Source: a virus
Length of the DNA stretch: 60,128 nucleotides
Direction: 5' to 3' (one strand)
Virus record (IMG/VR): IMGVR_UViG_3300007908_000001
Location: 1-60,128 of that record
Position numbers and translations under genes: made by a program. Numbering within the stretch: position 1 is the first letter of the stretch; each line of letters begins with the position of its first letter. This document shows positions 4,114 through 31,393 of this stretch, in pieces. The notes below the pieces were generated by a model that ran no database searches, was not told the DNA's origin, and saw only the letters and a program-made list of their open reading frames with translations.

Positions 4114-4119
4114 TTATCG

Positions 4120-4293
4120 CTACACCCCCGTCACATTTAACCGGATATAAAACTCCGTTATTGCCTCGTGATTGTCATCCGCCCAATCGAGGAAACACGG
4201 CTCGTCGCAGAAGTAATGCGCTTTGCGGTCGTCGTAAGCCGCGTCCTCGGGCGTTATAGTAGCGTTGCATTGCGTACATAGTAGCGGGTTCAT
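4120..4293 (-). CDS. Small zinc-ribbon protein, 57 aa
   Basis: The start is set at the ATG at 4291-4293, which overlaps the TGA of the preceding nuclease gene as ATGA and implies translational coupling. The protein opens with MNPLLCTQCN, followed by FCDEPC about 25 residues later, so four Cys can bind one zinc ion. There is no catalytic domain. Such small CxxC proteins are common in phage early operons and may bind nucleic acid or a protein partner. A longer reading from an upstream Met is possible but would overlap the nuclease gene by about 50 bases. Confidence 0.75.
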   Translation of the reverse strand: MNPLLCTQCNATITPEDAAYDDRKAHYFCDEPCFLDWADDNHEAITEFYIRLNVTGV

Positions 4294-4703
4294 AGCGCCG
4301 GCCCCGCATCGTAAGAATCGATCGTCGTATATAAACGCGTCCACGTAGTTTCTGCGTTATCGATGCTGCTCCAATATTCGCTAATTTCGCGGTTAGGCGT
4401 CATGTAGACGGCATTATCGTAAACTCCGATGAAATAATCGCAGTCGTCTTCCGTGTAGACAGCGCCGTTATTCTTCTTACCGCGGATAACGAACCAGTCG
4501 TTGCCGGATTTATTACGTTTGAGAATCGTCTTAATCTGAATCCTGCGTATTGTTCCGTCGCCTTTACGCGTTATTGCGAGGTCAAACGGTTCGGGAACGA
4601 TTGGCTCCAAAACCGTATAACCATTCGCTAGTAACGCTGTCTGCGCAATCAGCTCGGAGTGGCGACCGATCGAAGCTGTTGTCTGCGCTTGTCCGCCTAT
4701 CAT
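4290..4703 (-). CDS. PD-(D/E)XK endonuclease, 137 aa
   Basis: It shows the compact order typical of Holliday-junction-resolvase-like nucleases: GRHSELIAQTALLANGY (an early Glu in helix 1), then PFDLAI (catalytic Asp), then RIQIKT (Q-x-K in place of E-x-K). The length fits a single nuclease domain. Its start overlaps the stop of the next upstream gene (4700), and its stop overlaps the zinc-ribbon gene. A second PD-(D/E)XK protein lies immediately upstream. It could resolve branched DNA or cut a specific DNA site. A RuvC-like protein is also encoded in this operon, so the resolvase role is uncertain. Confidence 0.75.
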   Translation of the reverse strand: MIGGQAQTTASIGRHSELIAQTALLANGYTVLEPIVPEPFDLAITRKGDGTIRRIQIKTILKRNKSGNDWFVIRGKKNNGAVYTEDDCDYFIGVYDNAVYMTPNREISEYWSSIDNAETTWTRLYTTIDSYDAGPAL

Positions 4704-5296
4704 ATTGCGATACCTTTATAGAAGTCAGAGTACGTTCGTATAATGTCGAAGTCGTTATCGTAAACGTCATAAGAACTTTCGACGCCTACCGATACTGTCT
4801 GCTGCTGAACGTGATGACTTGGAACTACGAATGTTCGCTTAGGCGATTTTTCCGAACCATTTGCGACCATGATGTATATATCGCATGTAGGTTTATTTTT
4901 GACGAGATTGAACGTGTGGACGCGTGATTCCTTTATAAAATATTCATTCGCCATTTTCACGTCAATCTTAACTGCCCCGTCTATTAGTAAGTCGTAAGGA
5001 TGTCGTGTAGTCATATGTTCAACGATATATCCTTTATTTCGAAGTAATTCCGCGACTTCAAATTCCGCTTCTTGTCCGTCGTTCGTGTGACTTTCTTTTA
5101 GATCAACACCTAGCTTTCCTGCCCATCCGCGATATGTCCCAAACCTGCTTATGCGGCTGTGGAGGTCATTCCTACCAACACTTTTAAGTTCATCCGCAGT
5201 AGGCATCCTCGAAAGACTTAGGGAGTGCATTACTTCCTTTAATCCCTGTTCAACTTTTTCATCCGTCCATTGAGTTCGTTTTAATTTCGAAGTCAT
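4700..5296 (-). CDS. HNH-repeat plus PD-(D/E)XK homing-type endonuclease
   Basis: A protein of 198 residues in two parts. Residues about 30-70 (MPTADELKSVGRNDLHSRIS, then FGTYRGWAGKLG) match the homing-endonuclease-associated DNA-binding repeat. Residues about 72-120 form a PD-(D/E)XK core: GQEAEFEVAELLRNKGY, then PYDLLI (Asp) and VKIDVKM (D-x-K). The combination suggests a site-specific, selfish-type nuclease rather than a housekeeping enzyme. It is inserted between SSB and another nuclease, and overlaps its downstream neighbour by four bases. No intron or interrupted host gene is visible here. A restriction-type or recombination role is the alternative. Confidence 0.7.
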   Translation of the reverse strand: MTSKLKRTQWTDEKVEQGLKEVMHSLSLSRMPTADELKSVGRNDLHSRISRFGTYRGWAGKLGVDLKESHTNDGQEAEFEVAELLRNKGYIVEHMTTRHPYDLLIDGAVKIDVKMANEYFIKESRVHTFNLVKNKPTCDIYIMVANGSEKSPKRTFVVPSHHVQQQTVSVGVESSYDVYDNDFDIIRTYSDFYKGIAI

Positions 5297-5320
5297 TACG
5301 TTCCCCCTTTCTTTGCCATC

Positions 5321-6076
5321 TTAAAACGGTAAGTCTGATTCTGCTACTTGCGTATTATCGACGGGATTTCCTTCCGACCCTCCCGCTGCTGGGCGTTCGA
5401 GACCGATTAACGAGATATCGAAGCCAGCCGTAATTAGGTTCGTAATCTGCTCCGCTTCGTCCGCTTCAAACAGTAAGCCTTCGAATAGTTTCATATCGAA
5501 CGATTCCGGTGCTTTACCGAGGTTAGCGCGTTGTGCATCCGTCAAGTCTTCTTCCGGGTACATAATCGGCGTAAGGCTTACCGTCGTTGAAGTTCCGCTT
5601 CCTTGCTTCGACAATTCGAACGACATATCGGCTAGTCGCTTTTCATTACGCTTGATAACAGCGTGAATTGCCTGCGCTTGGTTCTTCGATACGTCGACGA
5701 TAATCGGTTCTCCCGAAGTTAAGTCGAAGAATCCCATTGCGAACCGTTGACTTGCGCGGTATTTCGACGCCTCTTGTCCGTGATGATCGTTGAACTCCTT
5801 CGATAAATCCTTGTGATATTTCCACGCCTTATCCCATACGGTGAGATTATCGACTGGATATCCGTTAGCCGATTTCTTTGACGGCTCTTTGGCTACGAAG
5901 CTATTGACGACTTTAAACACGCCGTAACTAAAGAACGTGATTAAATCCGCCGAGCCTAGTACCTTTACCGCTAATGTAGTTCCCGTCTTGAACGACGTAA
6001 ATTCCATTCCGCTACCGCTTTCGTTAGTTGCGTTCAATGCGTTGAGCGCGTCTGCGCCCGATTGATATTGCGTCAC
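5321..6076 (-). CDS. Single-stranded DNA-binding protein (phage type)
   Basis: 251 residues from a GTG at 6074-6076, chosen because AAGGGG lies eight bases upstream and the in-frame sequence before it is arginine-rich and unlike protein. The strongest sign is the acidic C-terminal tail ending ESDLPF, the SSB tip that docks replication partners. The body has the length and GMEFTSFKTG/FFSYGVFKV patches seen in Bacillus-type phage SSBs. I do not see a classic OB-fold motif I could name by position. It lies with polymerase and recombination genes. Function is inferred from the tail and the context. Confidence 0.7.
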   Translation of the reverse strand: MTQYQSGADALNALNATNESGSGMEFTSFKTGTTLAVKVLGSADLITFFSYGVFKVVNSFVAKEPSKKSANGYPVDNLTVWDKAWKYHKDLSKEFNDHHGQEASKYRASQRFAMGFFDLTSGEPIIVDVSKNQAQAIHAVIKRNEKRLADMSFELSKQGSGTSTTVSLTPIMYPEEDLTDAQRANLGKAPESFDMKLFEGLLFEADEAEQITNLITAGFDISLIGLERPAAGGSEGNPVDNTQVAESDLPF

Positions 6077-6090
6077 ATTACCGTCCCCTT

Positions 6091-6207
6091 TTAGTTGTTT
6101 ATTTTCAAGCGTTGGATTACGGCGAAAGTTGCGCTCGATTCGGTCAGCCCTGTTAGTTTGGTCACGGGGAAAACTTCGTCGTCTTTCGCCTTGAATACGC
6201 TGTACAT
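6091..6207 (-). CDS. Small hypothetical protein, 38 aa
   Basis: A short frame starting MYSVFKAKDDEVF and ending KINN just before the SSB ribosome binding site. GGAAG lies seven bases upstream of the ATG, and the amino-acid make-up is ordinary, unlike the arginine-rich overlapping frame. Probably a real small early gene translated just ahead of SSB. No function is recognised. The 130 bases upstream of it (6208-6339) show no convincing gene. Confidence 0.55.
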   Translation of the reverse strand: MYSVFKAKDDEVFPVTKLTGLTESSATFAVIQRLKINN

Positions 6208-6339
6208 GCGGATACTTCCGTGAACCGCTTGGTTCGCCTGTTTCCGCGTGCGTCATCACCGCCACGTATTCTCGTTCCGAACGCCCGCAAACGTGCTTAC
6301 CGTAGTAAATCCGTTTGCCGACGTTCAGCCGGCTTTTTA

Positions 6340-8596: not shown

Positions 8597-8797
8597 ATGT
8601 ATAACTATCGACCATTACGCAATTATCTCGACACTCACGGATCATCCGTCAAGGCGCTAATGCGCGAAGTCGGATTCTCGACTAACGTAGCCGTGGCACT
8701 TAATAACGATAAGCCGGTCACAATCGAAGTCCTCGCGAACATCTGTCGCCACCTCAACGTGCCCATTGAACAAGTCGTTAATATCGTACTAGACTAA
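8597..8797 (+). CDS. XRE/Cro-type small repressor
   Basis: 66 residues on the plus strand, one of few genes in this orientation. A helix-turn-helix covers most of the chain: VKALMREVGFSTNVAVALNN (helices 2-3), then PVTIEVLANICRHLNVPIEQ, the usual third and fourth helices of XRE domains. A strong AAAGGAGG precedes the ATG. It is transcribed away from the sigma-like gene across a shared operator. I infer that it is the lysogeny repressor or Cro, binding GTTTGA-N5-TCAAAC. There is no C-terminal oligomerisation or protease domain, so it is shorter than the CI of lambda-like phages. Confidence 0.8.
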   Translation: MYNYRPLRNYLDTHGSSVKALMREVGFSTNVAVALNNDKPVTIEVLANICRHLNVPIEQVVNIVLD

Positions 8798-17676: not shown

Positions 17677-18648
17677 CTAATATTCCACGCCGTCTTCGAT
17701 CGCAGCGTCTAAATCCGTTGAATAAATCGCGACGTATTTCCGTAATTCGTTAATATCGCTATGCCCCATTAACCGTTGCAGCGTAAATACGTCTGTTCCC
17801 GCCTGTATCTTAAACTTCGCGAATGTCCGTCGGAATACATGCGGACTACACTGAACCGCGTCAATTACTCCGCAATTCCGTCCATGCCGTCGTATCTGGT
17901 ACTGTATCGACCCTACCGCAAGCCTATCGTCAGTCGCCGTTATGAAAAGAGCATCGGTACTATCGGAAACACCGCGGACGCGAAGATACGCCGTCAATAT
18001 CGCCTGTAATCGACCTGTTAGCGGTATGCGACGCCCATAGCGATTCTTCGCACGTTGTACGTTAATCGACTTATCCGCGAATAGTACGTCGCCAACGTCT
18101 AACGCGTGTAACTCGGATACGCGAATCCCCGTATCGGCAAGCGTCCGCATAACCGCTAAATCGCGCAGTCCCTCAAACGTCGTAATATTCGGCGCACCTA
18201 AAATCCGGCGTAACTGCGCCTTGCTAAACGTTGGCCCGACTTCGTGACGTTCTTTTAGTACTTCGACTTCATTAGCGGGATTCGTCGTAATCATCCGTTT
18301 GCCTACGCAGAAGTTACCGAATATTTTAGCGGTGCGTACCCGTAAATTGATCGTAGACCTCGCGAGTCCTTGGCGAATAGAGTCCGTTTTAAAGGATTGA
18401 AAGTCGTCTACCGATATATTTTTAATGTTCGATAAATCTACGTCTATATCGACTAGGTGGCGCTGTAACTGAAGCAACTCCTTGCGATAAGACTTCGTAG
18501 TTTCATCCGACAAGCCTTTTGCAATTCCGTTGTTTATAAACGCATCTACGGCATCGCTAAACGAAATGACCCGCGCTACTTCTGCACGCCCAGCCGCTCT
18601 ATTAACTTCCTCGATAACCGACGGGCTAACCGTCCTTTTCCGTGCCAT
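17677..18648 (-). CDS. int: Tyrosine recombinase integrase
   Basis: 323 residues. An N-terminal SAM-like core-binding domain (about 25-120) precedes the catalytic domain. The catalytic set is complete: R176 (ADTGIRVSEL), K201 (QRAKNRYGRRI), H270-x-x-R273 (SPHVFRRTF), H296 (RLMGHSDIN) and Y305 (RKYVAIYS). The length and order are like XerC/D-type phage integrases without a large arm-binding domain. It inserts the phage genome into the host chromosome at attB. The candidate attP lies 180 bases upstream. The start follows GGAGGTTTTTATT. Confidence 0.95.
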   Translation of the reverse strand: MARKRTVSPSVIEEVNRAAGRAEVARVISFSDAVDAFINNGIAKGLSDETTKSYRKELLQLQRHLVDIDVDLSNIKNISVDDFQSFKTDSIRQGLARSTINLRVRTAKIFGNFCVGKRMITTNPANEVEVLKERHEVGPTFSKAQLRRILGAPNITTFEGLRDLAVMRTLADTGIRVSELHALDVGDVLFADKSINVQRAKNRYGRRIPLTGRLQAILTAYLRVRGVSDSTDALFITATDDRLAVGSIQYQIRRHGRNCGVIDAVQCSPHVFRRTFAKFKIQAGTDVFTLQRLMGHSDINELRKYVAIYSTDLDAAIEDGVEY

Positions 18649-19275: not shown

Positions 19276-21828
19276 TTATAACGCTTCTTGTAATTCCGCC
19301 CAACTCCGTCCATACAGTTGCGCGTGTCTTTTCGTATAAAACGAATTATCATATCGCAACTCAAACGGTATCGGCGGTAACATTCGGACTAAAAACGCGT
19401 GTATCGGTTCTTTCGTGTTGAGTATCGCTATCGCGTGAAACTTCGGCGTCTGTAGCGCATCTTCAACGGTAAACGTCGGGACCAGTCGTTCCTTCGCGAG
19501 TTCGAACGTTTTCTTATATTCCGACGCGAATAGGAACTGATTAACGCCGCCTCCGATTAGATTCTTCTGTAGGTAATCCGGTAATTTATCCCAGTGGTGA
19601 AACGCGAATATCGAGCCTAGCCGTTCCTTCCGCCCTTCCGTCGCGATCCGTCCCATTAACTCCGCAAGTCCTTTCGACTCTACTTGTTCCGGTTCGTTAA
19701 ATACGATGAAGCATCCGTGTTTCTCCTTATCTTCTTCGGACATCAAGAACCGCGTCATAAGCACTTTTAGCGTTACCCAATGCGCTAACGTGTTGCTGGC
19801 GTTCCCTAATTTCCGTTTAGGCATCCGGACGATAATCACCTTGCCTTCGCGCATCCACTTTTCGAAGTTTAATTCAGGTAACGGCGGTTGCGCGAATATA
19901 TCATGTAACGTATCGTCGCCGAAGAACATGTTCAAGCGGCTTAATATTGCGTCGCATTTGTTGCCGAGTTCTTCGTTCGTTCCCCAGCGGATCAAGTCGT
20001 TCGCTAACCGCAGATTACCGTCCTTCATTAAACGTTCAATCGTATCTGCGCGGAATTCCTCTTCCTCGATAATCCGCTTGATATTATAGAGTGAACCGCC
20101 GGACGCCTTCGACGCTTCCGTTAAATAACGTTGTGACCGCGCTAATCCTTCGAGTTGCATAAAGTCGATCATTTCCGTGGCGAACCGCGAACCTCCTTTA
20201 CGTCCTAACTTTTCGATAACCTCCGTTAAGTCCATCGGAATGATAAAGTCCTCATTTGCGAGGTCTAAGTCGATTATCTTATCCGGAGGTAGTAAGTCGC
20301 GGATGCCGTCCGCCATTCCTTTGTGACCCGGCTGGCATATCCAATCCGGAATAACGAAGGATATTCCGTGCTTCATTGCGCCTTCATAGACGAAGTTTTG
20401 AATCGCGTTATCCTTTCCGCTGCCTTGCTTGCCGATGAACGTGTATCCGGAATAGAAGTTATCCTTCTCGTTCGCCGGTAATCCGACGAGGAATTCCTTG
20501 TCTTTCACTTCCGCGTGACCGATAAGTAGGTTCCGCTTATTACGTAGCGCACTCGGAATAACCGTTTCAACGCGCGTCTTCGCATCCATTTCGTCGGCGT
20601 ATTTAAGCTGTAAATCGCGTATTGGCATTTGTAACGCAAGCTTACTCATTTCGTCCGTCGATACGAGGTTTACATCTGCGTCATACTTCGTTTTAGACGA
20701 TAGCTTCAACGTGTTCAGTTCGTCGATTACGTGCGCACCGGTTTTACGTCCGTTTAATTCGTTATTCTCTGCGATGTCGTTAAGCGAGATTGCTAACGTT
20801 TCGCATAGCGTTTCCCGCGTTAGTCTATCGGAGGAATGACCGGCGACTCGGATGCGCGATTTGAATACCGGAAGATTAATCTTTTCGAGACTAGCACCAC
20901 TTAATTTCGTCGCGCTAATTTCGTCTTCCAACGTATACCCCTTTTCGATAACCTTCGTTTTCGTTACGTCCTTATCCGACTTGAAAAACGAGTTCGATAT
21001 AGCTTCGATCGTATCCGTTAATAAGCTATTTACTTCGTTGATAAATCCGGCGAGTCCCGTCTTAATTATCGGTAACGCCTTCTTCGGACTGAAATTCGTA
21101 CGCTGCGGAACTTTACCCTTCGATAACTTTTCACGCGCCCAAGACGCGTTCTTAATCCACTTCTGCCGGCTTTCGACTTCGTTGCAAATTGATAGACGTG
21201 CGATGTCGCCGTCGTGCTGTAGTTCTTCTACCGTCGTTAAAATCGAGGACATAGGCGTCTTCTTATCGTTTGAGTGCGTGTTTAGCGAGAATATATCGTG
21301 TCGGAGGTATTTCATATCTTGTATAACGGTATCATTTTCGGGGACGTGTATGTGGTCGATAGTAGTTTCTTTGAGCGTGACGTTCATCTTGTTTTCGAGT
21401 CTGCGTTTGAGTTTGACGGCTTGATATTCGGAAGTAGATACATAGAATTCAATCTTGCGCTCGCCGTTGACTTGCCGGAATATCACGTCGAACCACAAGT
21501 AATCCTTTTCGCGATAATGTAGTTTGAGTTTATTCCGTTCTAATCGGCTGCCTAAGTTATTGTACATTTCGTACATCTTATGAATTGAACGCCATAACCG
21601 CTTATTATTACCTGCTACGGTCGCGTGCGGAATTATGCGATACGTTATCATACGGTTTTCTTCATATTCGAAGTAGTCTTCGAGTTTTACCGTAACGATT
21701 TTAGGAGTCCGTTTATACCACGGCTTTTTAAGAATAGTTGGCTCGGATTCGGGCGCGCATATAATAGAAGGAAGTAATTCGTTTCGTAATGAAGGTAACA
21801 TCGGTTCTCTTATCGCGATTTCATACAA
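19276..21828 (-). CDS. HerA/FtsK/TraG-type DNA-translocase ATPase, 850 aa
   Basis: Walker A is GKQGSGKD (residues 466-473) in YTFIGKQGSGKDNAIQNFV. A Walker-B-like strand is CFIVFNEPEQV (706-716), followed by GRIATEGRKERLGSIFAFHH, the helix and sensor pattern of HerA/VirD4/TraG-type hexameric ATPases. The first 420 residues are an unassigned regulatory or membrane-docking region (DYFEYEENRMITYRIIPHAT). No membrane helix is seen in the ATPase itself; two small membrane proteins are encoded just upstream. TTG start with GGAGG six bases ahead. Enzymes of this kind pump DNA or protein in conjugation. In this phage the substrate is unknown. Terminase is separate, so it is not the head-packaging motor. 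Confidence 0.8.
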   Translation of the reverse strand: MYEIAIREPMLPSLRNELLPSIICAPESEPTILKKPWYKRTPKIVTVKLEDYFEYEENRMITYRIIPHATVAGNNKRLWRSIHKMYEMYNNLGSRLERNKLKLHYREKDYLWFDVIFRQVNGERKIEFYVSTSEYQAVKLKRRLENKMNVTLKETTIDHIHVPENDTVIQDMKYLRHDIFSLNTHSNDKKTPMSSILTTVEELQHDGDIARLSICNEVESRQKWIKNASWAREKLSKGKVPQRTNFSPKKALPIIKTGLAGFINEVNSLLTDTIEAISNSFFKSDKDVTKTKVIEKGYTLEDEISATKLSGASLEKINLPVFKSRIRVAGHSSDRLTRETLCETLAISLNDIAENNELNGRKTGAHVIDELNTLKLSSKTKYDADVNLVSTDEMSKLALQMPIRDLQLKYADEMDAKTRVETVIPSALRNKRNLLIGHAEVKDKEFLVGLPANEKDNFYSGYTFIGKQGSGKDNAIQNFVYEGAMKHGISFVIPDWICQPGHKGMADGIRDLLPPDKIIDLDLANEDFIIPMDLTEVIEKLGRKGGSRFATEMIDFMQLEGLARSQRYLTEASKASGGSLYNIKRIIEEEEFRADTIERLMKDGNLRLANDLIRWGTNEELGNKCDAILSRLNMFFGDDTLHDIFAQPPLPELNFEKWMREGKVIIVRMPKRKLGNASNTLAHWVTLKVLMTRFLMSEEDKEKHGCFIVFNEPEQVESKGLAELMGRIATEGRKERLGSIFAFHHWDKLPDYLQKNLIGGGVNQFLFASEYKKTFELAKERLVPTFTVEDALQTPKFHAIAILNTKEPIHAFLVRMLPPIPFELRYDNSFYTKRHAQLYGRSWAELQEAL

Positions 21829-21844
21829 CGTAATCCTCCTTCGT

Positions 21845-22141
21845 TTATTTAGTCGCTAATATACAAACCGTTAAAATTAAGCCAGCAACCATAACGGATA
21901 ACGGTTTCAACATACCGCCCCTACTCACTAAAGGCGATATCATAACGAAGGCTCCCGTTGCAAATACGCCATATCCGGCTATATCGGGCAACGCACCGAC
22001 GAACCAAGTCCACACGTCGCTACCGACTTCTCTAAACCATCCGCCAATTGATTCCGCGACAGGCTTCGTAACCATTTCGTTGCCCTTTTCGTACATACGC
22101 TGTTCAAGTTGCTCCGTCTTCCAGTTTATCCAATCCCACAT
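21845..22141 (-). CDS. Two-helix membrane protein, 98 aa
   Basis: The N-terminal half is amphipathic (MWDWINWKTEQLEQRMYEKG), followed by two membrane helices (DIAGYGVFATGAFVMISPLV and KPLSVMVAGLILTVCILATK) joined by a basic turn (SRGGML). ATG with GGGAG upstream. It lies between the pilin-like and ATPase genes, 13-16 bases from each, so all three are one transcription unit. It may dock the ATPase at the membrane. No named family; a second pilin-like subunit is possible. Confidence 0.75.
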   Translation of the reverse strand: MWDWINWKTEQLEQRMYEKGNEMVTKPVAESIGGWFREVGSDVWTWFVGALPDIAGYGVFATGAFVMISPLVSRGGMLKPLSVMVAGLILTVCILATK

Positions 22142-22154
22142 ATTCGTACTCCCT

Positions 22155-22508
22155 TCAAATTGTTTTTAAGAAATCCCGAATATCCAACGCGTGTCTTGCG
22201 AGTACAAATCCGCAAGCAACCGATATGAGTAATTCTATAGCCTTTGTCCGATGACCGAGCATCCACGCGACACCTGTAAATACGATGATACAAGCCGCTG
22301 CGTAATCTAATCCGGTCATTAACGACTGCCATATGCGGTTAAACGTATCCGCCGCGCCGTCGTTAGCAAACGCAATAGTCGGAAACGTAGCCGCGAATGT
22401 GCCGACCATAGCCGGATAGAGCTTCTTAAACCGTTTACTATCCGGCTTATCAACTGTGTACATCTTGCCGTCGATTTCGATGACATCCAACACTTCGATT
22501 TTCGCCAA
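22155..22508 (-). CDS. VirB2/TrbC-like pilin-type membrane protein
   Basis: 117 residues. After about 30 polar residues comes a hydrophobic segment ending AFPTIAFA-ND (LYPAMVGTFAATFPTIAFA), which looks like a signal peptide with an A-x-A cleavage site. Two more membrane helices follow (YAAACIIVFTGVAWMLG and AIELLISVACGFVLARHALD), joined by HRTK, and a basic end. This layout is that of VirB2/TrbC conjugation pilins. TTG start with GGAGG eight bases ahead. It is the first gene of the ATPase operon. The pilin call rests on topology; a generic small membrane protein is the alternative. Confidence 0.6.
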   Translation of the reverse strand: MAKIEVLDVIEIDGKMYTVDKPDSKRFKKLYPAMVGTFAATFPTIAFANDGAADTFNRIWQSLMTGLDYAAACIIVFTGVAWMLGHRTKAIELLISVACGFVLARHALDIRDFLKTI

Positions 22509-23200: not shown

Positions 23201-24100
23201 TTACACTCGTTGAATCCGTACATCCTTCGCCTTACCTCGTAAAGCCTTCGCTACCGCGTCCGTTACATTCGCAACTACGCCGTACGCTCCGACTTGCTTA
23301 CCGTCTACAATGACGCGATATACGTCGCCATCTGCCTTCGGTGCGGGCGCAGGCTTTGCGGGAGGCTTCGGCTTAGGTTTCGCCATTTCCGCCAATACCT
23401 CCGCTAGTTTTCGCTGTGACGCAGGCCCGAAGATGCCGTCCGCTGTAAGTCCGTATTTGCGTTGGAACGCCTTGACCGCCGTTTCCGTCCCGCGACCGAA
23501 TGAGCCGTCGACTGCGAGTTTGTATCCGACTTTATTCAAGTCCGCCTGTAACGCCGTAACTAGTACGCCAGTATCGCCGTAACGTAAATCGTACGGTGCT
23601 TTCGGATTAGCCACTTTAACAACGCCTCCTTTTACTTCCGCTATGAATTGCGCCCAGTTAACGCCTTTCGAACCGTTGCGCAGATTCGTCGGGCAATTCT
23701 TCCCGCTCCATCGGTTATGCTGAACGACGTTAGTGAGCGGGATATTCTCCTCCGCCATAATCTTACGGACAAGCGCCGCAGCGTTATCGACTGCCTTACG
23801 GAAATCTCCGTCGCTATTAACGCAGATTTCTATTCCGATAGAATTCAAGTTACCGCTGCCCCTGCCGTCACCCGCGTGGAAACATTGCGCTGTATGCGGA
23901 AATGATTGTATCGCCTGCTTATCGTCGACTTGCCAGTGCCACGACGCCGAGAATCCGTTAGTCTGTAAATTAGCGTGTGCTTGCGCATTTGCACCCTTCG
24001 CCGTATTCGCCGTTTCGTGTATCGTAATATACTTGCGACCGTTTGTACCGCCATAAGTTCTCGCTGTGCTTGCGACGAGTTGTCGTTTAATCGCGACCAT
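23201..24100 (-). CDS. Endolysin: N-acetylmuramoyl-L-alanine amidase
   Basis: 299 residues. The amidase_2 domain covers about 1-155: YITIHETAN (zinc His), CFHAGDGRGSGN, SIGIEICVN, QHNRWSGKNCPTNL (second His and Cys). A peptidoglycan-binding domain follows (about 168-238: LRYGDTGVLVTALQADLNKV, VDGSFGRGTETAVKAFQ). After a Pro/Ala/Lys linker a small C-terminal domain (VYRVIVDGKQVGAYG ... KDVRIQRV) resembles a SPOR-type wall-binding fold. It cuts the amide bond between muramic acid and the stem peptide at lysis. There is no signal peptide, so it depends on the holin. Its start overlaps the holin stop. Confidence 0.95.
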   Translation of the reverse strand: MVAIKRQLVASTARTYGGTNGRKYITIHETANTAKGANAQAHANLQTNGFSASWHWQVDDKQAIQSFPHTAQCFHAGDGRGSGNLNSIGIEICVNSDGDFRKAVDNAAALVRKIMAEENIPLTNVVQHNRWSGKNCPTNLRNGSKGVNWAQFIAEVKGGVVKVANPKAPYDLRYGDTGVLVTALQADLNKVGYKLAVDGSFGRGTETAVKAFQRKYGLTADGIFGPASQRKLAEVLAEMAKPKPKPPAKPAPAPKADGDVYRVIVDGKQVGAYGVVANVTDAVAKALRGKAKDVRIQRV

Positions 24101-24394: not shown

Positions 24395-24748
24395 CTATCG
24401 TATTATTTGATTAACGCTTTCGATACCGAAGTAGAATAGTAGCGCTGCGATGACAAGCGCTGATACAACCTTCCACCAAAAGTTTTTATGTCGGGTTAAT
24501 TCCGCTTCCCTGTCGCCGTCCATTTTATCGCGAATGTAACGTGTATCGCTTTTAATTTCGCCGAGCGTTTCTTTTAACATCGATATCTCTTGATCCTGTA
24601 GTTTATCCGACATTTGTAAATCGCGGATATCGTCCTTCATTCCGAGTTGATTCGTATTCAACCGGTTGAGGACGCCTTTCATATCGGTAATATCTTGATT
24701 GACGCGTTCCCGCCATATATCCATAGCTTCGTCAGTCCCTTCGCCCAT
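24395..24748 (-). CDS. XhlA/BhlA-type hemolysin-like lysis protein
   Basis: 117 residues from the ATG at 24746-24748, which follows GGGGG at a good distance; the in-frame codons further upstream lack a site. Residues about 10-80 are coiled coil (RVNQDITDMKGVLNRLNTNQ, LQDQEISMLKETLGEI), then one membrane helix near the C-terminus (FWWKVVSALVIAALLFYFG). This is the layout of XhlA, which in PBSX-like phages works with the holin in lysis. It lies 14 bases upstream of the holin. Confidence 0.9.
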   Translation of the reverse strand: MGEGTDEAMDIWRERVNQDITDMKGVLNRLNTNQLGMKDDIRDLQMSDKLQDQEISMLKETLGEIKSDTRYIRDKMDGDREAELTRHKNFWWKVVSALVIAALLFYFGIESVNQIIR

Positions 24749-24871
24749 TTCGTACCCCCTAGATGTTGCGGTATTTGTGCGCACCGCCTATACTATAAAT
24801 ACGCCGTCTGCGAGTACCCTGCGTATGACGGCGAGGGGAGGCGTGAACTCCCCGTTTATTTTTACGGACGC

Positions 24872-24899
24872 AAAAAGAACGCCGTGTGAGGGCGCTCTC
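24872..24899 (-). terminator. Terminator after the moron gene
   Basis: On the minus strand GAGCGCC and GGCGTTC (one G-U pair) enclose a CTCACAC loop, followed by TTTTT. It lies about 50 bases beyond the stop of the polymerase-like gene at 24950. It separates the acquired cassette from the lysis genes, which may then need read-through or their own promoter. Confidence 0.75.
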
Positions 24900-24949
24900 A
24901 ATTCCGTTATCTTGAATTCAAGTAATCAACATAATGTTCCAAAGATACA

Positions 24950-26263
24950 TTACCAAGTAATTCTGTATCTTTTTCTTTTTCTTACTTGTTCAGCGTTATC
25001 TTTTGATTCGTTTGATTCAGAATGTGGATTAGCAATTTCCCTTCTATATTCAAAATTCTGCCTCTGTATCATGCCAACAATGAAACAAAATATATTAAAA
25101 TAAGTGAACCAACCTTGTATAACAGGTTCTACCATAAAAGTAATAATAAACGCTGTAAATAACGCAATTACTATACCCTTTAACACTACAGGGTGATTGT
25201 ATCTACGAAACGTAATTATCGAGCCAATAGAAATTAACGTAAATAAAACTAAGACAGCAAAAGGGAAAAAACCGCCTTCAAATGCAACATCAAGCCATAA
25301 GTTATGTGCATAATTTAACGGAATTAAAGTTTCCTTCCCTCCCATCGGATTTTCAAATAAACCATTAAAGGTCAGTTTCCAAGCAAGTACTCTCGAATCT
25401 GAACCGATGTCTGTCGATTGCAACCTAGCATAAAGTAAGGTGTTTTCCCAGGCAAATCTGAGCCCAAACATATTTTGATCGAAAAGGTATTTAAATATTA
25501 ACAGAAAGAACGCGGTTGAAAAAATACCCGCAACTTTCTTTAAACTAGCTTTTCTAACAAATAACGTAGTTACCAAAAATGATAATACGATTATCGCGAA
25601 ACCAGACCGATTTCCTAATTGCAGTACACAATAGGTTGCCGCTACAAAACTGAGTAAAGCCATTATTCTAATAGTATTATTATGCTTATCCTTATTATCC
25701 TTCAAGAACACTAAAGGGAGCATAGCTAACCCAAAAGATAATAACGTATTTATTCCTGTTGCTGTGATAAAACTATCGTCCCAAAAATTCATTACCAGCC
25801 TCTGACCCCCGAATGTCTTAATTGCAGAAGTCATATCACCATAAGTGAGTACAGTATTCAACAAACTTAAATAGCCGAATAAAGTAAAGGACACGATAAC
25901 CAAGATTAAATACTGATACATCTTTTTGTATTTACCGTTAGTTACGATATACCCCATCACATATAACGTAAAAGGATATATTAGGTACAATAAGATGGTG
26001 CCATTTGTACTGAATTTGTAATAATACTGAACTAAGGCATAGATGATGCTGAAAACCATAAGTGTTGCAAGAGTTATTGTAAATCTAGTGTTGTATTTAA
26101 ACCTAATCAAATAAATACACATTACCGGGAAAATAAGTAGAGGAATGTAAACCCCCACATTTAAAAAATTAATACAATATAACACCAAAATAAGCATAAA
26201 TACCAGGTCTTTGTAGCTGATTGCCCGTAGATTGTCTCTCTTTGTTAATATATCCAAGTTCAC
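24950..26263 (-). CDS. O-antigen ligase/polymerase-like (Wzy_C) membrane protein, moron
   Basis: 437 residues with about 10-12 membrane helices. The large-loop motif of the Wzy/WaaL family is visible: LGNRSGFAI in one helix boundary and YAHNLWLDVAFEGG in the periplasm-side loop, then a charged C-terminal tail. Family members join or polymerise surface polysaccharide. The gene is much more AT-rich and poorer in CG than the phage backbone, and stands between the fibre and the lysis genes. It is not needed for virion assembly. It may change the host surface glycan in the lysogen, for example to block superinfection. GTG start at 26261-26263; a TTG two codons later has the better-spaced GAGG. Confidence 0.8.
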   Translation of the reverse strand: MNLDILTKRDNLRAISYKDLVFMLILVLYCINFLNVGVYIPLLIFPVMCIYLIRFKYNTRFTITLATLMVFSIIYALVQYYYKFSTNGTILLYLIYPFTLYVMGYIVTNGKYKKMYQYLILVIVSFTLFGYLSLLNTVLTYGDMTSAIKTFGGQRLVMNFWDDSFITATGINTLLSFGLAMLPLVFLKDNKDKHNNTIRIMALLSFVAATYCVLQLGNRSGFAIIVLSFLVTTLFVRKASLKKVAGIFSTAFFLLIFKYLFDQNMFGLRFAWENTLLYARLQSTDIGSDSRVLAWKLTFNGLFENPMGGKETLIPLNYAHNLWLDVAFEGGFFPFAVLVLFTLISIGSIITFRRYNHPVVLKGIVIALFTAFIITFMVEPVIQGWFTYFNIFCFIVGMIQRQNFEYRREIANPHSESNESKDNAEQVRKRKRYRITW

Positions 26264-26367
26264 GTCCTCATTTCCGCATAACTTTGTCTACTAAACTCTA
26301 GTCTACCAAAGCGCAAATGAGTTTGGTAATTTTTTCATTAAATAGTTCTTCCTACAAGCGTATTACT

Positions 26368-28878
26368 TCACCCTAAATTCTTTAAGAAATAATAAATCGG
26401 CTTAGACATCTCATCATACCCCGCATCATTTGGATGTACCGCATCGCTGATATGCGATTCCGTGTTTAATTGTGCATGTATTGGTACAAGGTATAAATTT
26501 TCTAACTCTCTATTGTCATACTTAGCAATGAATTGTCGCAACCACTCGTGATAAACTGCTTTATATCTCCAACGTGTCTGACCCGCGCCATACGCAGAAC
26601 CAAATGCGGTCTGTGTTGCGTTTGGTGGTATCGTTACCATCAAGGCGATTCTGATTGTTGAACTAAACGCTTTAATGCTCGCTATGATAGTTTCAAAGTG
26701 AGCCAATATCGAAGGTACTCCCGCTTTTGCTTCTTCCACAGTTGCGTAATTGAAAATGTCATTAATACCTAAATGTATAAACACATAATCTAGGCTTGAA
26801 TACCCTTGTTGGTTCATGTAATACGCAAAATCAAACTTGGAAGTTGTGGGATTCCAAAAAGCGTTTGTTGTCCCTGCCAATGAAGCGGACTTTGTATAAA
26901 CAGCACCACTCCAACCACTTCTCCCTTCGTGTAGATTAGGAGTCGTCCCTCTTGTTCCAAATAACTGTACATTCATCGAGTCCCCCACAAAAGAATCCAA
27001 CAACGCTTGCGTATACTTTCCAGCATTTGTCGTGCTATCTCCGATGAATAATACATTTTTAGTACCCGAACCATTTGTAGTGGATACTGTTTTCAACGTA
27101 ACCCCCTTCGATGCAACTCTTTTCTGCCCGTCATAAGCTTCGATTGTTATAGGTAACTCTCCCGGTGTCCCCGACAACGACCCGACCCGTTTATCATAAT
27201 GAATTCCTCTAGCGCTTATCACATCAATGTTATATTCACTTGCTTCGTGAATAATATTGTCGAAGTATATATTTAATGGTTTGCCTTCTACCGCATAAAT
27301 TTTATTTGGTAAGTCAATCAGTAGGTTTTCTTTGCCTTCTTCATCTACGGGCTTTGAAGATAAATATTTGGACGGTATTACGGGCTGATAAGGTGCATAT
27401 GTGGAAGGTAAAGTATCACCTTTCACCAACATCTGAGTGTCTAAGTTCGTTAATAGTACCGACACCCTTAGATATTTAGCGTTTTCTGGCGCTGTAATAA
27501 TCGGTGTCATTTGTGGCGCTGCCGGATTAGCGATGTAAATTTTGTTCGCATCATACCATGAAAAATGTTGGTTGATATTATTTCTAATATATCTACCGGA
27601 ACCAATAACTTCTATAAAGTCACTATACGTGAACCCCGCACTAGCCAAAAGAGAGCCATTTAAATACGATACATATTGTCCGGCTGTCGTTTTAGTTTTA
27701 TCAAACAAGTTAACTGATTCCAAGAAACCCAATTCGTTAGCATTGATCACAAAGTTTTCAAACGCTGATTTATCCAACCCTTTGATTAAATCCTTCTGGA
27801 TTTGCCATTGAAAAGGAATATAATATGATGGTGCTACTTCATTCTTGACTACAGTTAATGTGTTATTACGTGTAGCAAGTAAGTGAATCCTCATATAATA
27901 TGCCCCAGACGGAACTGATAACGTCGTGACGTTTACTCCCGTAACAGCACTAATAAATGAATAGTCAACAGTGTAAAATGCATAACCACCTATCGGTAAA
28001 GATGTGTTTATCGTATCCCCGTGATTAACCTTTATATAATCCGATGTACGCCATGTTTCATCTGCTCTAACAGTCCCGTCAGCAGTTAATAAATAACCAC
28101 TTTCAGCACTGTCTTTATCGTATATATTTCTTGAGTCCACAAAGGAGGCTTTTCTTTCCGTGATTATATCATCAGCAAGCGTTTGAAGTATAGGAGCATT
28201 ACCATTTATTTGTTGCTTCAATGTATCAGAAACGTCTGATTCACCAATTAGAACTGACTTTTTTCGAACTTCTGCGTCATTCGCCTTTTCCGCCAACTGT
28301 TGATTAACTTTATCGAGTCTAGCGTTAAGATTGACCTCTCCTCCGCGCGCTTGCACGACCTCCGGATTATTACTTCCAGCTTCCGCAATCACCGCGTCAA
28401 ACTGATCGCGTACTCCTTCCGCAACTACCTCGGCGTGTTCCGCTTTATCGACCGCTACGACTACCTTCGCGTCCATATCGTCGAATTGTCGCTGAAACTG
28501 CTCGACGGTAATCGTATTTACGTCGGTATATCCGAGGTTATCGAGCGACGGCGTTATTTTCAAACGTAAGAAGTCGTCCGCGGGGAACTTCTGCGTCTTG
28601 CCGCCGACTGTAGACGTGAATTCTACGCGCATCCTGTCGCCGTACCCTACGTCTTCCGTTACGGTAATTCCGATGCGTCCTTCGCCGAGTATCTGCGCCG
28701 TTCCTTCGTGGACGACTCCGCCTGCTCGTTGCGCGATTTTATACGTAACCGCTGAACCCGTTAAATCTACGAGATTTCCCTCGCCGTCGAACAGGTTAAA
28801 TTCGAGTGTGAAGTCGTGTCCTTGCTTAATGATGTTACCGCCTTTAATTAGCGTCACCTTCGTTATAGGTTTGTGCAT
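26368..28878 (-). CDS. Receptor-binding fibre: BppU N-terminus, SGNH hydrolase C-terminus
   Basis: 836 residues. The N-terminal 110 (MHKPITKVTLIKGGNIIKQG, HDFTLEFNLFDGEGNLVDLT) match the baseplate upper protein BppU attachment domain. A helical neck follows (about 120-200). The middle has repeated beta modules, and the C-terminus is an SGNH/GDSL esterase: GDST (613-616, nucleophile Ser), HLGINDIF (block III, about 702-709), and DAVHP (D812, H815). The enzyme probably removes acetyl or similar groups from the receptor glycan. The DNA changes from backbone-like to AT-rich inside the gene near 28.25-28.3 kb, so the receptor-binding part looks swapped in. Confidence 0.9.
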   Translation of the reverse strand: MHKPITKVTLIKGGNIIKQGHDFTLEFNLFDGEGNLVDLTGSAVTYKIAQRAGGVVHEGTAQILGEGRIGITVTEDVGYGDRMRVEFTSTVGGKTQKFPADDFLRLKITPSLDNLGYTDVNTITVEQFQRQFDDMDAKVVVAVDKAEHAEVVAEGVRDQFDAVIAEAGSNNPEVVQARGGEVNLNARLDKVNQQLAEKANDAEVRKKSVLIGESDVSDTLKQQINGNAPILQTLADDIITERKASFVDSRNIYDKDSAESGYLLTADGTVRADETWRTSDYIKVNHGDTINTSLPIGGYAFYTVDYSFISAVTGVNVTTLSVPSGAYYMRIHLLATRNNTLTVVKNEVAPSYYIPFQWQIQKDLIKGLDKSAFENFVINANELGFLESVNLFDKTKTTAGQYVSYLNGSLLASAGFTYSDFIEVIGSGRYIRNNINQHFSWYDANKIYIANPAAPQMTPIITAPENAKYLRVSVLLTNLDTQMLVKGDTLPSTYAPYQPVIPSKYLSSKPVDEEGKENLLIDLPNKIYAVEGKPLNIYFDNIIHEASEYNIDVISARGIHYDKRVGSLSGTPGELPITIEAYDGQKRVASKGVTLKTVSTTNGSGTKNVLFIGDSTTNAGKYTQALLDSFVGDSMNVQLFGTRGTTPNLHEGRSGWSGAVYTKSASLAGTTNAFWNPTTSKFDFAYYMNQQGYSSLDYVFIHLGINDIFNYATVEEAKAGVPSILAHFETIIASIKAFSSTIRIALMVTIPPNATQTAFGSAYGAGQTRWRYKAVYHEWLRQFIAKYDNRELENLYLVPIHAQLNTESHISDAVHPNDAGYDEMSKPIYYFLKNLG

Positions 28879-28901: not shown

Positions 28902-29093
28902 TTAATCCGTATCAATTTCGACCGCTCCCGCGTCCGTTTGTTCCCTCGTTTTCATCAGTTCAATCTGCGAATGAGCGAGGTCTAAGTCGAGCATAAGACC
29001 CGCTATTCTACGGCTTTGCTTTTCTACCGTCATCTTTAATACGGCTTCTAACTCCGTATCTTGTTGCGATTGCGCTCCGTCTATTTCCGTCAT
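28902..29093 (-). CDS. Small coiled-coil protein, 63 aa, tail region
   Basis: Helical throughout (TELEAVLKMTVEKQSRRIAG, LDLDLAHSQIELMKTREQ). The start overlaps the stop of the Tal gene. Small helical proteins often sit between Tal and fibre genes in TP901-like phages; the role is not known. Confidence 0.7.
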   Translation of the reverse strand: MTEIDGAQSQQDTELEAVLKMTVEKQSRRIAGLMLDLDLAHSQIELMKTREQTDAGAVEIDTD

Positions 29094-31393
29094 TTCATCG
29101 CTCCTTCTAATGCGTCTATTTTCTCGATAGCTTGCTTTAATCCTCGGAATAAGAATCCGACAAGTCCGTAAATACCGAATCCATCGCCACGCTCCGAATA
29201 CGTTTCGTAAGGCATTTCGTCGAGCATTAATCCGAGTTGCTTCTTCGTATGAGAACCTTCGTTTACGCGGTTGTATAAATAGGCGTCTGCGTTACGGATA
29301 ATGTCGAGTACGTCGATATCATATACGTCAATATTTCGTTTATTTTCGCGTACCGACGTATCTGTAATAAACTCCCGCGCGCGAACCGGACGGTATGTTG
29401 TTTCCGTCCCACGTACCGTGACTTTTACTTCGCCGCCGCCCGCAGGACGTATGAAGAAATCAACGCCATCCCCCGTACCTTTATCGATAAAGTCACCATA
29501 GTATCCTAGCCCTCTGTATGCGACGTACGTAGACGTGCCGCTATTGTTTACAGCTCTAACTTCACCTGTTGCGTTTGGGCGCAAGAATAGATTGTCGGAA
29601 GCGCCCGAAAGATTATTAACGTCATACGTATTTGCCTTAACGCTTTCAACACGGATTGGCTGATAGATGTCCGTCGTGCCGTTTAACGTAACGCGTAATT
29701 CCCCCGCGCTTAACGGTCTGGCGTATAAATTAACCGCACTTGCTCCGGTGCCTGTGTTTATGTTCCAAAAGTTTCCGTAAAATCCGGATGCTCTTAATGG
29801 AAGGTAACGATAACTTCCGATTAAACCGTCGCCCGGAATATCGTCATATTCGACAACCCGTGCTTCACCGCTCCTTGACGCTAGATATACATTAGTTTGC
29901 GACGTTCCAAACGCTGAACTTGTTACTAATGTCGAATCCGCTTGGAATCGAATATCCCCGCCGGCATTCCGTCCATAAAATCCGCTAGGCGACATTTCGA
30001 CGTACCTTCCGTTAGATTGCAGTAAATGGATATTTCCGCCAGTAATCGTCATTTCGTCAGCGCCGGAAATCGAACGGAATGTACTTCCGTAAATCTCGAC
30101 ACCTTCGATGACGATTCCGCGAAGTGTCCCCGCAGTAATAACGTCTGCAACGATACCGTCGCCTGTTACCGCAGTCCTAAACGAATTCCCGCCGTCGTTA
30201 GATATTCCGATACCTGCCGATGTAAATACCGTCAGCTTATTAGGATTGTTCGGATCGCGCCCGATAATCCCGTTGTTAAACTCCAATTCCGTCTGTGCCG
30301 ACTGTAGCGCTAATGTCGCCGCTCTTACTGCTTCGTCTAACGCACTGAACGGTAATTCCGTACGCCCTTCGATTAAGTCGTTAATGCGTCCTATTGCCGA
30401 TGTTAGATTCGATTGATGTCGCTTAGTTAACGAATCCGAGCCTAGCGTTAATTTCAAGTCGATAACGTTACCGCGCCAATCCTTGACGACCGTAATATCG
30501 CTAACGCGCACTTCTACGTCTAATCCGATACGCTCGTCGATAAGGAATACGCGGTCGCCTAATTCCGGCTGCGCTAACGCGTAGCCTTGTCGCCTTAAAT
30601 CGTGTATGTCCGCAGATACGCTAATCTTTAAAGATTCGTTGACTAACGTCTTCAATGCGTTGTCCATCGTCGTTTCGTCCGTAACACGTCCGTCGTAAAT
30701 CGGAGGCGCGTGACGTATTCCGACGATGTCCGCAATAGGTGACGTGTATTCACGGGTTAAAGCCGCGTTTTCTTCGTCGCCTTCTTCGTAATCGCCGAAA
30801 CCTTTAGCGTACGTCCATAACGCAGTAGCATCGATTTCCTCGATGATATTAGACGCGTTAAGTCGATAACGGTATTGAAACGATGTGTCGCGTCCTATTT
30901 GCGATTCAAGGTAAACGATCTTTCCGCTTATGCGGAATTCCGCTTTATATCGCTCTAACGCACGTTTGAACGTCGCCAATTTAGTGTCGCCTTTACCGAA
31001 GCCTTGCCATTGAACCGCTGTAAACGCGTCGACGATAACGAAGTTAAAGCCGGTATCCGCGAAGATTAACGTAAAGGCGTCGTGCGCCGTCATATGCGTA
31101 TTGTATTCTTCGTAAATCCGATCATTGTCGAATACGTCGAAGAATAACGGGACTGCGATAACACTTGCGATTAATTTATCGCCTTCGCCCGCCTTCTTTA
31201 CGTAGACGACTTTATACTCAACGCCGTCATCGTCGATAACGTTCCACATTTCCGTTAAGTTGTCGATAAATAATTCATTAACCTTCGACGGCTCTATGGT
31301 AAACGCTATTGACTGATTGCCGTTTCTTTCGCCTTGCCACTCCGTCGTGGCTTCGAGTAGGTATTCGTTGCCGACTAAATCTCGTACATACAT
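29090..31393 (-). CDS. Tail-associated protein Tal with C-terminal S74 chaperone
   Basis: 767 residues. The N-terminal 330 follow the prophage endopeptidase tail (gp18/Tal) pattern: MYVRDLVGNEYLLEATTEWQ, AHDAFTLIFADTGFNFVI, then PELGDRVFLIDERIGLDVEV. Residues about 380-680 are repeated beta segments with GFYGRN/GFYGNF/GYYGDF motifs, likely a trimeric shaft. The end (DTSVRENKRNIDVYDIDVLD, LGLMLDEMPYE) is a peptidase S74 intramolecular chaperone, which trims itself off after folding. It forms the tail tip and may reach the cell wall. No separate peptidoglycan hydrolase domain is seen. Confidence 0.88.
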   Translation of the reverse strand: MYVRDLVGNEYLLEATTEWQGERNGNQSIAFTIEPSKVNELFIDNLTEMWNVIDDDGVEYKVVYVKKAGEGDKLIASVIAVPLFFDVFDNDRIYEEYNTHMTAHDAFTLIFADTGFNFVIVDAFTAVQWQGFGKGDTKLATFKRALERYKAEFRISGKIVYLESQIGRDTSFQYRYRLNASNIIEEIDATALWTYAKGFGDYEEGDEENAALTREYTSPIADIVGIRHAPPIYDGRVTDETTMDNALKTLVNESLKISVSADIHDLRRQGYALAQPELGDRVFLIDERIGLDVEVRVSDITVVKDWRGNVIDLKLTLGSDSLTKRHQSNLTSAIGRINDLIEGRTELPFSALDEAVRAATLALQSAQTELEFNNGIIGRDPNNPNKLTVFTSAGIGISNDGGNSFRTAVTGDGIVADVITAGTLRGIVIEGVEIYGSTFRSISGADEMTITGGNIHLLQSNGRYVEMSPSGFYGRNAGGDIRFQADSTLVTSSAFGTSQTNVYLASRSGEARVVEYDDIPGDGLIGSYRYLPLRASGFYGNFWNINTGTGASAVNLYARPLSAGELRVTLNGTTDIYQPIRVESVKANTYDVNNLSGASDNLFLRPNATGEVRAVNNSGTSTYVAYRGLGYYGDFIDKGTGDGVDFFIRPAGGGEVKVTVRGTETTYRPVRAREFITDTSVRENKRNIDVYDIDVLDIIRNADAYLYNRVNEGSHTKKQLGLMLDEMPYETYSERGDGFGIYGLVGFLFRGLKQAIEKIDALEGAMK

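Follow-up and report, generated by a model that had tools for sequence, protein, structure and literature searches.

The IMG/VR virus record IMGVR_UViG_3300007908_000001 spans 60,128 nucleotides, and this whole stretch (the window) carries a tail fibre gene whose distal part, together with the following gene for a polymerase-like membrane protein (wzy), forms a foreign cassette. The late genes lie on the minus strand in the order tape measure, distal tail protein, Tal, small protein, fibre, polytopic membrane protein, XhlA-like protein, holin and amidase, where polytopic means five or more predicted transmembrane (TM) helices. For comparison, loci (L numbers) were gathered by Tal or fibre queries from 261 Sporosarcina-family genomes, 398 genomes across Bacilli, IMG/VR and annotated phages; genomes are given G numbers. 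The features at the centre of the analysis are as follows.

26368-28878, minus strand: tail fibre / receptor-binding protein, 836 amino acids (phrog_4440 tail fibre N-terminus, phrog_26878, phrog_19519)
28283-28878, minus strand: proximal part of the fibre, conserved, about residues 1-199; it includes the left exchange anchor (...RLDKVNQQLAEKA), from amino acid identity to L031/L062 and the end of nucleotide homology at 28282-28289
26398-27054, minus strand: SGNH/GDSL esterase domain, fibre residues 609-827 (Pfam Lipase_GDSL, E 1.2e-13; motifs; conserved in L002)
24950-26263, minus strand: wzy-like gene, 437 amino acids, about 12 TM helices (Wzy_C, TIGR04370, relative in L008, conserved residues)
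24872-24899, minus strand: intrinsic terminator behind wzy, GAGCGCC-ctcacac-GGCGTTC-TTTTT (fold -16.3 kcal/mol), kept in L067, which has no such moron; the 3' arm of the hairpin serves as right exchange anchor
24884-28282, minus strand: foreign exchange cassette, distal fibre plus wzy (GC change-point 24901-28275, CpG observed/expected, homology edges 28282 and 24883)

A foreign cassette behind the proximal fibre

The first-pass annotation had described an AT-rich, CG-poor block from about 28.3 to 24.95 kb. Maximum-likelihood GC segmentation places the strongest low-GC segment of the window at 24901-28275, which is near-identical in its limits. The cassette (24884-28282) has a GC content of 36.6% and a CpG observed/expected ratio (o/e) of 1.10. 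The backbone, in 999 windows of the same length, stands at 47.5% GC (standard deviation (sd) 0.014 as a fraction, minimum 44.3%) and a CpG o/e of 1.91 (sd 0.07, minimum 1.71); the cassette is about 8 sd away in GC and about 11 sd in CpG o/e. By gene, the GC content is 51.5% in the proximal fibre, 39% in the distal fibre and 33% in wzy. The change therefore lies within the fibre gene near codon 199 and directly 3' of the membrane gene.

The homology of the flanking DNA gives the same picture. On the left, nucleotide homology to other prophage fibres ends at 28282-28289, with L031 94% identical to the window over 28282-28313 and L105 75% identical over 28289-28404. On the right, prophage L067, which has neither the fibre nor the membrane gene at the corresponding place, matches 24530-24883 at 75%, starting in the 3' arm of the terminator. 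Composition and homology are independent approaches, and the limits that they give for the cassette agree within about 20 bases. The block is an acquired foreign cassette, as had been proposed, and it has the foreign composition and the dispensable, inserted character of a moron.

The proximal fibre (residues 5-211) is 38.6% identical in amino acids to L031 and 35% to L062. The distal fibre appears by eye to contain putative jelly-roll-like repeats, and in its SGNH domain blocks I, III and V are intact (GDS 613-615, GIND 704-707 and DAVH 812-815). Relatives of the fibre are annotated as receptor-binding protein in Lactococcus phages and as SGNH hydrolase in Staphylococcus phage Sebago. A structural model of the SGNH domain reached a predicted local distance difference test (pLDDT) score of 54; its top Foldseek matches include esterases and PatB, none of them below E 0.01. 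SGNH enzymes are esterases, which remove acyl groups and do not cut chains. The anticipated content of the block, a fibre with an SGNH esterase (E 1.2e-13) and a polymerase-like membrane protein (Wzy_C, TIGR04370), is thus present, but the idea that this fibre cuts surface glycan has to be given up in favour of de-acylation.

Ancestry of the polymerase-like gene

The window Wzy is matched by Wzy_C (E 2.8e-6, 27.6 bits, under the 31.7-bit cutoff) and by TIGR04370, the oligosaccharide repeat unit polymerase family (E 2.1e-6, 27 bits, under the 40-bit cutoff). The Wzy-like gene of the capsule locus L008 scores lower than the window Wzy with both families (21.9 and 26.2 bits, respectively). The 12 predicted TM helices fit the 10-14 expected of Wzy-type polymerases. 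The motif residues R219, R291-W295, P306-x-G-G, H320-N321 and G331 are identical in L008 and in register in most of eight sequences drawn from capsule polymerases and from those of the Tal-to-lysin slot described below. The profile of these eight sequences matches an oligosaccharyltransferase of known structure (9rmk, E 5e-4), which is consistent with membership of the Wzy/WaaL/PglL superfamily. An AlphaFold2 model of the window Wzy, built from two sequences, was too poor (pLDDT 41) and was set aside. The membrane protein is predicted to be a Wzy-type repeat-unit polymerase, and polymerising activity would be expected of it.

The closest relative of the window Wzy is 61% identical and is located between glycosyltransferases in L008, on a Sporosarcina contig. 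This capsule-type locus also encodes an initiating sugar transferase, two CapE/CapF-type enzymes, a UDP-GlcNAc 2-epimerase, three glycosyltransferases and a Wzx flippase, and the 61% relative is the only Wzy-like gene seen there. A weaker relative (30% identical) resides in a similar capsule-type locus, L030. No relatives were found by tblastn in 50,697 phages or by pattern scans of IMG/VR. The derivation of the window polymerase from a capsule or exopolysaccharide (EPS) locus lineage is supported by these sequence relationships. Between the window wzy and L008, codon positions 1, 2 and 3 are 68, 84 and 42% identical, and 22 of the 83 fourfold sites are identical. Synonymous sites are thus saturated while codon position 2 remains 84% identical, and the protein has therefore been kept by purifying selection.

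Recurrence and block exchange in other phages

The interval between Tal and lysin was surveyed in 99 loci that have both genes (88 non-redundant at 95% Tal identity), amounting to 235 kb of slot. Wzy_C alone was rejected as a search criterion, as it is too common, with matches in 218 of the 261 genomes. The 99 slots hold six distinct polytopic proteins. Three are polymerases, namely the window Wzy and those of L031 (Wzy_C, 46.1 bits) and L182 (TIGR04370, 63.3 bits, over the cutoff); two are acyltransferase-3 proteins (L069 and L169), and one is a DUF6077 protein with 14 TM helices (L068). No transporters or other polytopic proteins were present in the 99 slots. The slot polymerases have no BLAST-detectable homology to each other, so the slot has been filled repeatedly. 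No relatives of the L031 and L108 polymerases were found among phages.

Comparable pairs occur outside the slot set, and in L108 and L105, as in L031 and L182, the polymerase is found between fibre and lysis genes of otherwise unrelated prophages. L108 has the order fibre, Wzy_C (45.5 bits), XhlA, holin and amidase. L105 (7963-10175, genome G205; 31-35% GC) encodes an SGNH-type fibre, then a membrane-anchored SGNH protein and then a 12-TM polymerase-like protein that has no family match and is without the His-Asn motif. Staphylococcus phage phiRS7 carries a Wzy_C gene (58.8 bits) antisense beside the fibre, and Anoxybacillus phage A403 (L164/L004, 2766-4466) an antisense Wzy_C gene (44.6 bits) next to the fibre gene. 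The A403 product is annotated as a “holin” (YP_009837540.1) and consists of a holin N-terminus (about residues 1-108) in frame with a Wzy_C polymerase (E 1.7e-11); nearby tail genes look inverted, and rearrangement or misassembly of this fusion is possible. The slot and related genes are mostly very AT-rich (26-36% GC). The fibre tips end in SGNH or beta-helix domains beside polymerases, and in a GDPD domain beside the L069 acyltransferase. In this last case (3181-6238, genome G163), the GDPD phosphodiesterase domain is a possible teichoic-acid cutter, and the adjoining acyltransferase-3 gene is antisense. A soluble, AT-rich protein of 323 amino acids and no known family, not counted as polytopic, occupies the same slot in L062 (7889-8860) and L186 (14471-15442), following a fibre that carries a polysaccharide deacetylase domain.

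It could be argued that the space separating tail from lysis genes is simply a tolerant landing place, and that wzy is an ordinary conversion gene, functionally independent of the fibre, that helps the host against other phages, predators or desiccation. An operon end directly ahead of a terminator does tolerate insertions, fibre tips and membrane genes occur in many combinations (Wzy beside an SGNH or a beta-helix tip, acyltransferase beside a GDPD tip), and SGNH fibres without a polymerase exist. However, the polytopic proteins of the slot are nearly all surface-glycan enzymes, and a landing place predicts neither an exchange of the membrane gene as one block with the distal fibre nor an SGNH-wzy pair in a capsule locus. 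This explanation is considered rather unlikely.

Such a block exchange was observed between two prophages of one genome, G042. L068 and L070 are 97.3% identical in nucleotides through Tal, Dit and the fibre to codon ~199. After this codon, L068 has one distal fibre and the DUF6077 gene, whereas L070 has a different distal fibre and lacks the DUF6077 gene; the two sequences match again from the final 8 nucleotides of the membrane gene onwards. What distinguishes the two prophages here is thus a single block made up of distal fibre and membrane gene, and its left edge lies where that of the window cassette does. The DUF6077 moron was seen once in the 261 genomes, and a further phage remnant, in which the lysis cassette differs in part, carries a truncated copy. 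The earlier claim that fibre and membrane gene are linked thus finds backing both in this one-block difference and in the comparable pairs of other phages.

The SGNH-wzy neighbourhood also exists outside phage. In genome G105, a frameshifted, stop-ridden SGNH sequence of the fibre type (L029, 11729-12261) lies ~160 bp upstream of a wzy that is 37% identical to that of the window, in the same order. This wzy is inside a host capsule locus; the reading of the region as a second prophage with the pair was accordingly dropped in favour of host capsule genes next to a decayed SGNH. The search in other prophages and in host capsule loci that the first-pass annotation had proposed thus returned both recurring pairs and capsule-locus kin of the polymerase. 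The G105 arrangement would also suit a passive hitchhiker, that is, a wzy that was brought in from a capsule locus along with the SGNH part and is idle in the phage. However, the open reading frame of 437 codons is intact, its motif residues are retained, and comparison with the host gene indicates strong purifying selection; unrelated polymerases have, moreover, appeared in the slot independently and repeatedly. None of this fits an idle passenger, and this explanation is very unlikely.

Proposed receptor exchange, expression and known systems

The recurrence of different versions of the pair at the same spot in phages of Gram-positives suggests that a receptor change and a rewriting of the receptor come about in one swap. 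It is somewhat probable that the cassette is a receptor-exchange unit, in which the fibre tip and a matching glycan enzyme are swapped as one block. The distal fibre would recognise a surface polysaccharide, and the SGNH domain would strip its O-acyl groups during adsorption. The Wzy, taken from a host capsule/EPS locus, would join host-made repeat units by a linkage, or in a proportion, that differs from that of the resident Wzy. The new polysaccharide on infected or lysogenised cells may then no longer fit the incoming fibre, which would limit superinfection and the re-adsorption of progeny. The exchange of distal fibre and glycan enzyme would be anchored in conserved sequence on both sides, at fibre codon ~199 and in the terminator of the tail operon. 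It is proposed that the two move as one block because the remodelling enzyme has to fit whichever receptor the fibre uses. If true, this would account for the ability of phages to switch receptors while neither shutting out their own lysogens nor being shut out by them, and the type of moron should co-vary with the fibre tip. It would also mean that, as in Acinetobacter, prophage polymerases encoded away from the capsule locus can determine the capsule/EPS type of Bacillota.

Several results weigh against receptor exchange. Most Tal-type phages, among the 88 non-redundant slots, have no such gene, and the 398 genomes across Bacilli gave zero further cases. The polymerase is absent beside SGNH fibres that are 25-36% identical to that of the window over the shared part (L002, Lactococcus 98203, Streptococcus Javan383); the same fibre without the moron, named beforehand as grounds for rejection, has thus been found in part, at this level of identity. 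The single clean prophage pair involves a DUF6077 protein and not a Wzy. In the open-access literature, phage Wzy function is proven only in Gram-negatives. Finally, no promoter above chance was detected for the window wzy (16 sites against 14.9 expected), and without an independent promoter its expression in the lysogen is doubtful. The general form of the proposal, that in prophages of Gram-positive Bacillota a glycan-active fibre tip and an enzyme rewriting the same glycan are one transferable unit between fixed anchors, changing receptor and superinfection-exclusion chemistry in a single recombination, is offered tentatively and is on balance doubtful.

The position of wzy bears on the timing of its expression. 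It is co-directional with the fibre, 104 nucleotides behind it and with its own ribosome site, and it seems to close the tail operon. A lysogenic-conversion moron would have its own promoter and terminator and be expressed in the lysogen; here, the terminator is present but shared with the backbone. The end position and the lack of a promoter above chance favour late expression or read-through, and the suggestion that the moron remodels glycan in the lysogen was not supported. The same arrangement would suit a late lytic role, with none in lysogeny, in which Wzy made together with the fibre keeps progeny off the envelope fragments of burst cells by a neuraminidase-like logic. Polymerised chains build up slowly relative to the lytic cycle, however, and the antisense orientation of the genes relative to the late genes in phiRS7, A403, L069 and L169 implies that these phages transcribe them separately. 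A purely late role is considered unlikely.

The remaining late genes near the cassette are listed below.

29090-31393, minus strand: Tal / prophage endopeptidase tail protein (Prophage_tail, E 8.7e-32), 5' of the fibre gene and the anchor for the survey
24395-24784, minus strand: XhlA-like lysis protein, backbone (XhlA, E 0.0034, under the cutoff), in the region of 75% nucleotide identity common with L067
24100-24381, minus strand: holin, backbone (Phage_holin_1, E 1e-26)
23201-24100, minus strand: endolysin, backbone (Amidase_2, E 3e-19)

The window represents a tailed phage, which is probably temperate. It encodes a tyrosine recombinase (17677-18648), a small helix-turn-helix protein (8597-8797) and its own DNA polymerase and ribonucleotide reductase; no clear CI-type repressor was seen among its proteins. 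A Planococcaceae-like host forms part of the receptor-exchange proposal and is modestly favoured. The CpG o/e of the phage backbone (1.91) is unusually high throughout. The region 19276-22508, 3' of the lysis cassette, contains a gene resembling those of VirD4/FtsK-type ATPases (850 amino acids, phrog_5156) and, adjoining it, one for a small TrbC/VirB2-like membrane protein (E 1.2e-5, slightly under the cutoff). Related prophages have similar VirD4/FtsK-region genes downstream of the lysin, some with ParM-like genes (by eye).

Parts of this arrangement have counterparts in known systems. The SGNH fibres of Klebsiella prophages are active esterases and, like gp63.1 of coliphage G7C, resemble the window fibre in carrying a C-terminal SGNH domain that de-acetylates surface polysaccharide; these are Gram-negative systems, and a polymerase partner is not reported in the available part of the source (PMC13123978). 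TarP of Staphylococcus aureus is likewise a prophage-encoded enzyme altering a Gram-positive surface glycopolymer, but it is a glycosyltransferase acting on teichoic acid and not a polymerase, and joint exchange with a fibre tip was not found in the open-access literature. Phage phiRS7 (Orf17-Orf18, “O-antigen ligase”) is the case of a Gram-positive phage with fibre and Wzy_C genes side by side. It differs in that wzy is antisense, shares a bidirectional terminator with the fibre and lies before Tal; the fibre tip is NodB-like by eye, with no Pfam match. No study of its “O-antigen ligase” product was found in the open-access literature. The present findings suggest that surface-glycan polymerases lie behind some phage annotations of “O-antigen ligase”, and in A403 even of “holin”.

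In the serotype-converting phages with an O-acetyltransferase (Oac) or acyltransferase-3 (Sf6, SfII, phiV10 and epsilon15), a phage enzyme similarly modifies the polysaccharide of the tailspike, and the Sf6 O-acetyltransferase blocks superinfection by hindering its own tailspike (PMC9558356). The difference is that these act on Gram-negative O-antigen, and oac of Sf6 adjoins the integrase gene and is not in a block with the fibre tip. WzyPh1 (K127) of an Acinetobacter baumannii prophage alters the linkage between capsule units and, like the window Wzy, is phage-encoded and of capsule-locus ancestry; it is present in several different prophages (PMC9241936). It is from a Gram-negative and its function is shown, whereas that of the window Wzy is predicted, and the available part of that source does not describe coupling to a receptor-binding gene. 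Conversion of surface glycans by phages is already known; what is new here is a putative case of it in a Gram-positive setting, with the enzyme gene physically joined to the part of the fibre that binds the receptor.

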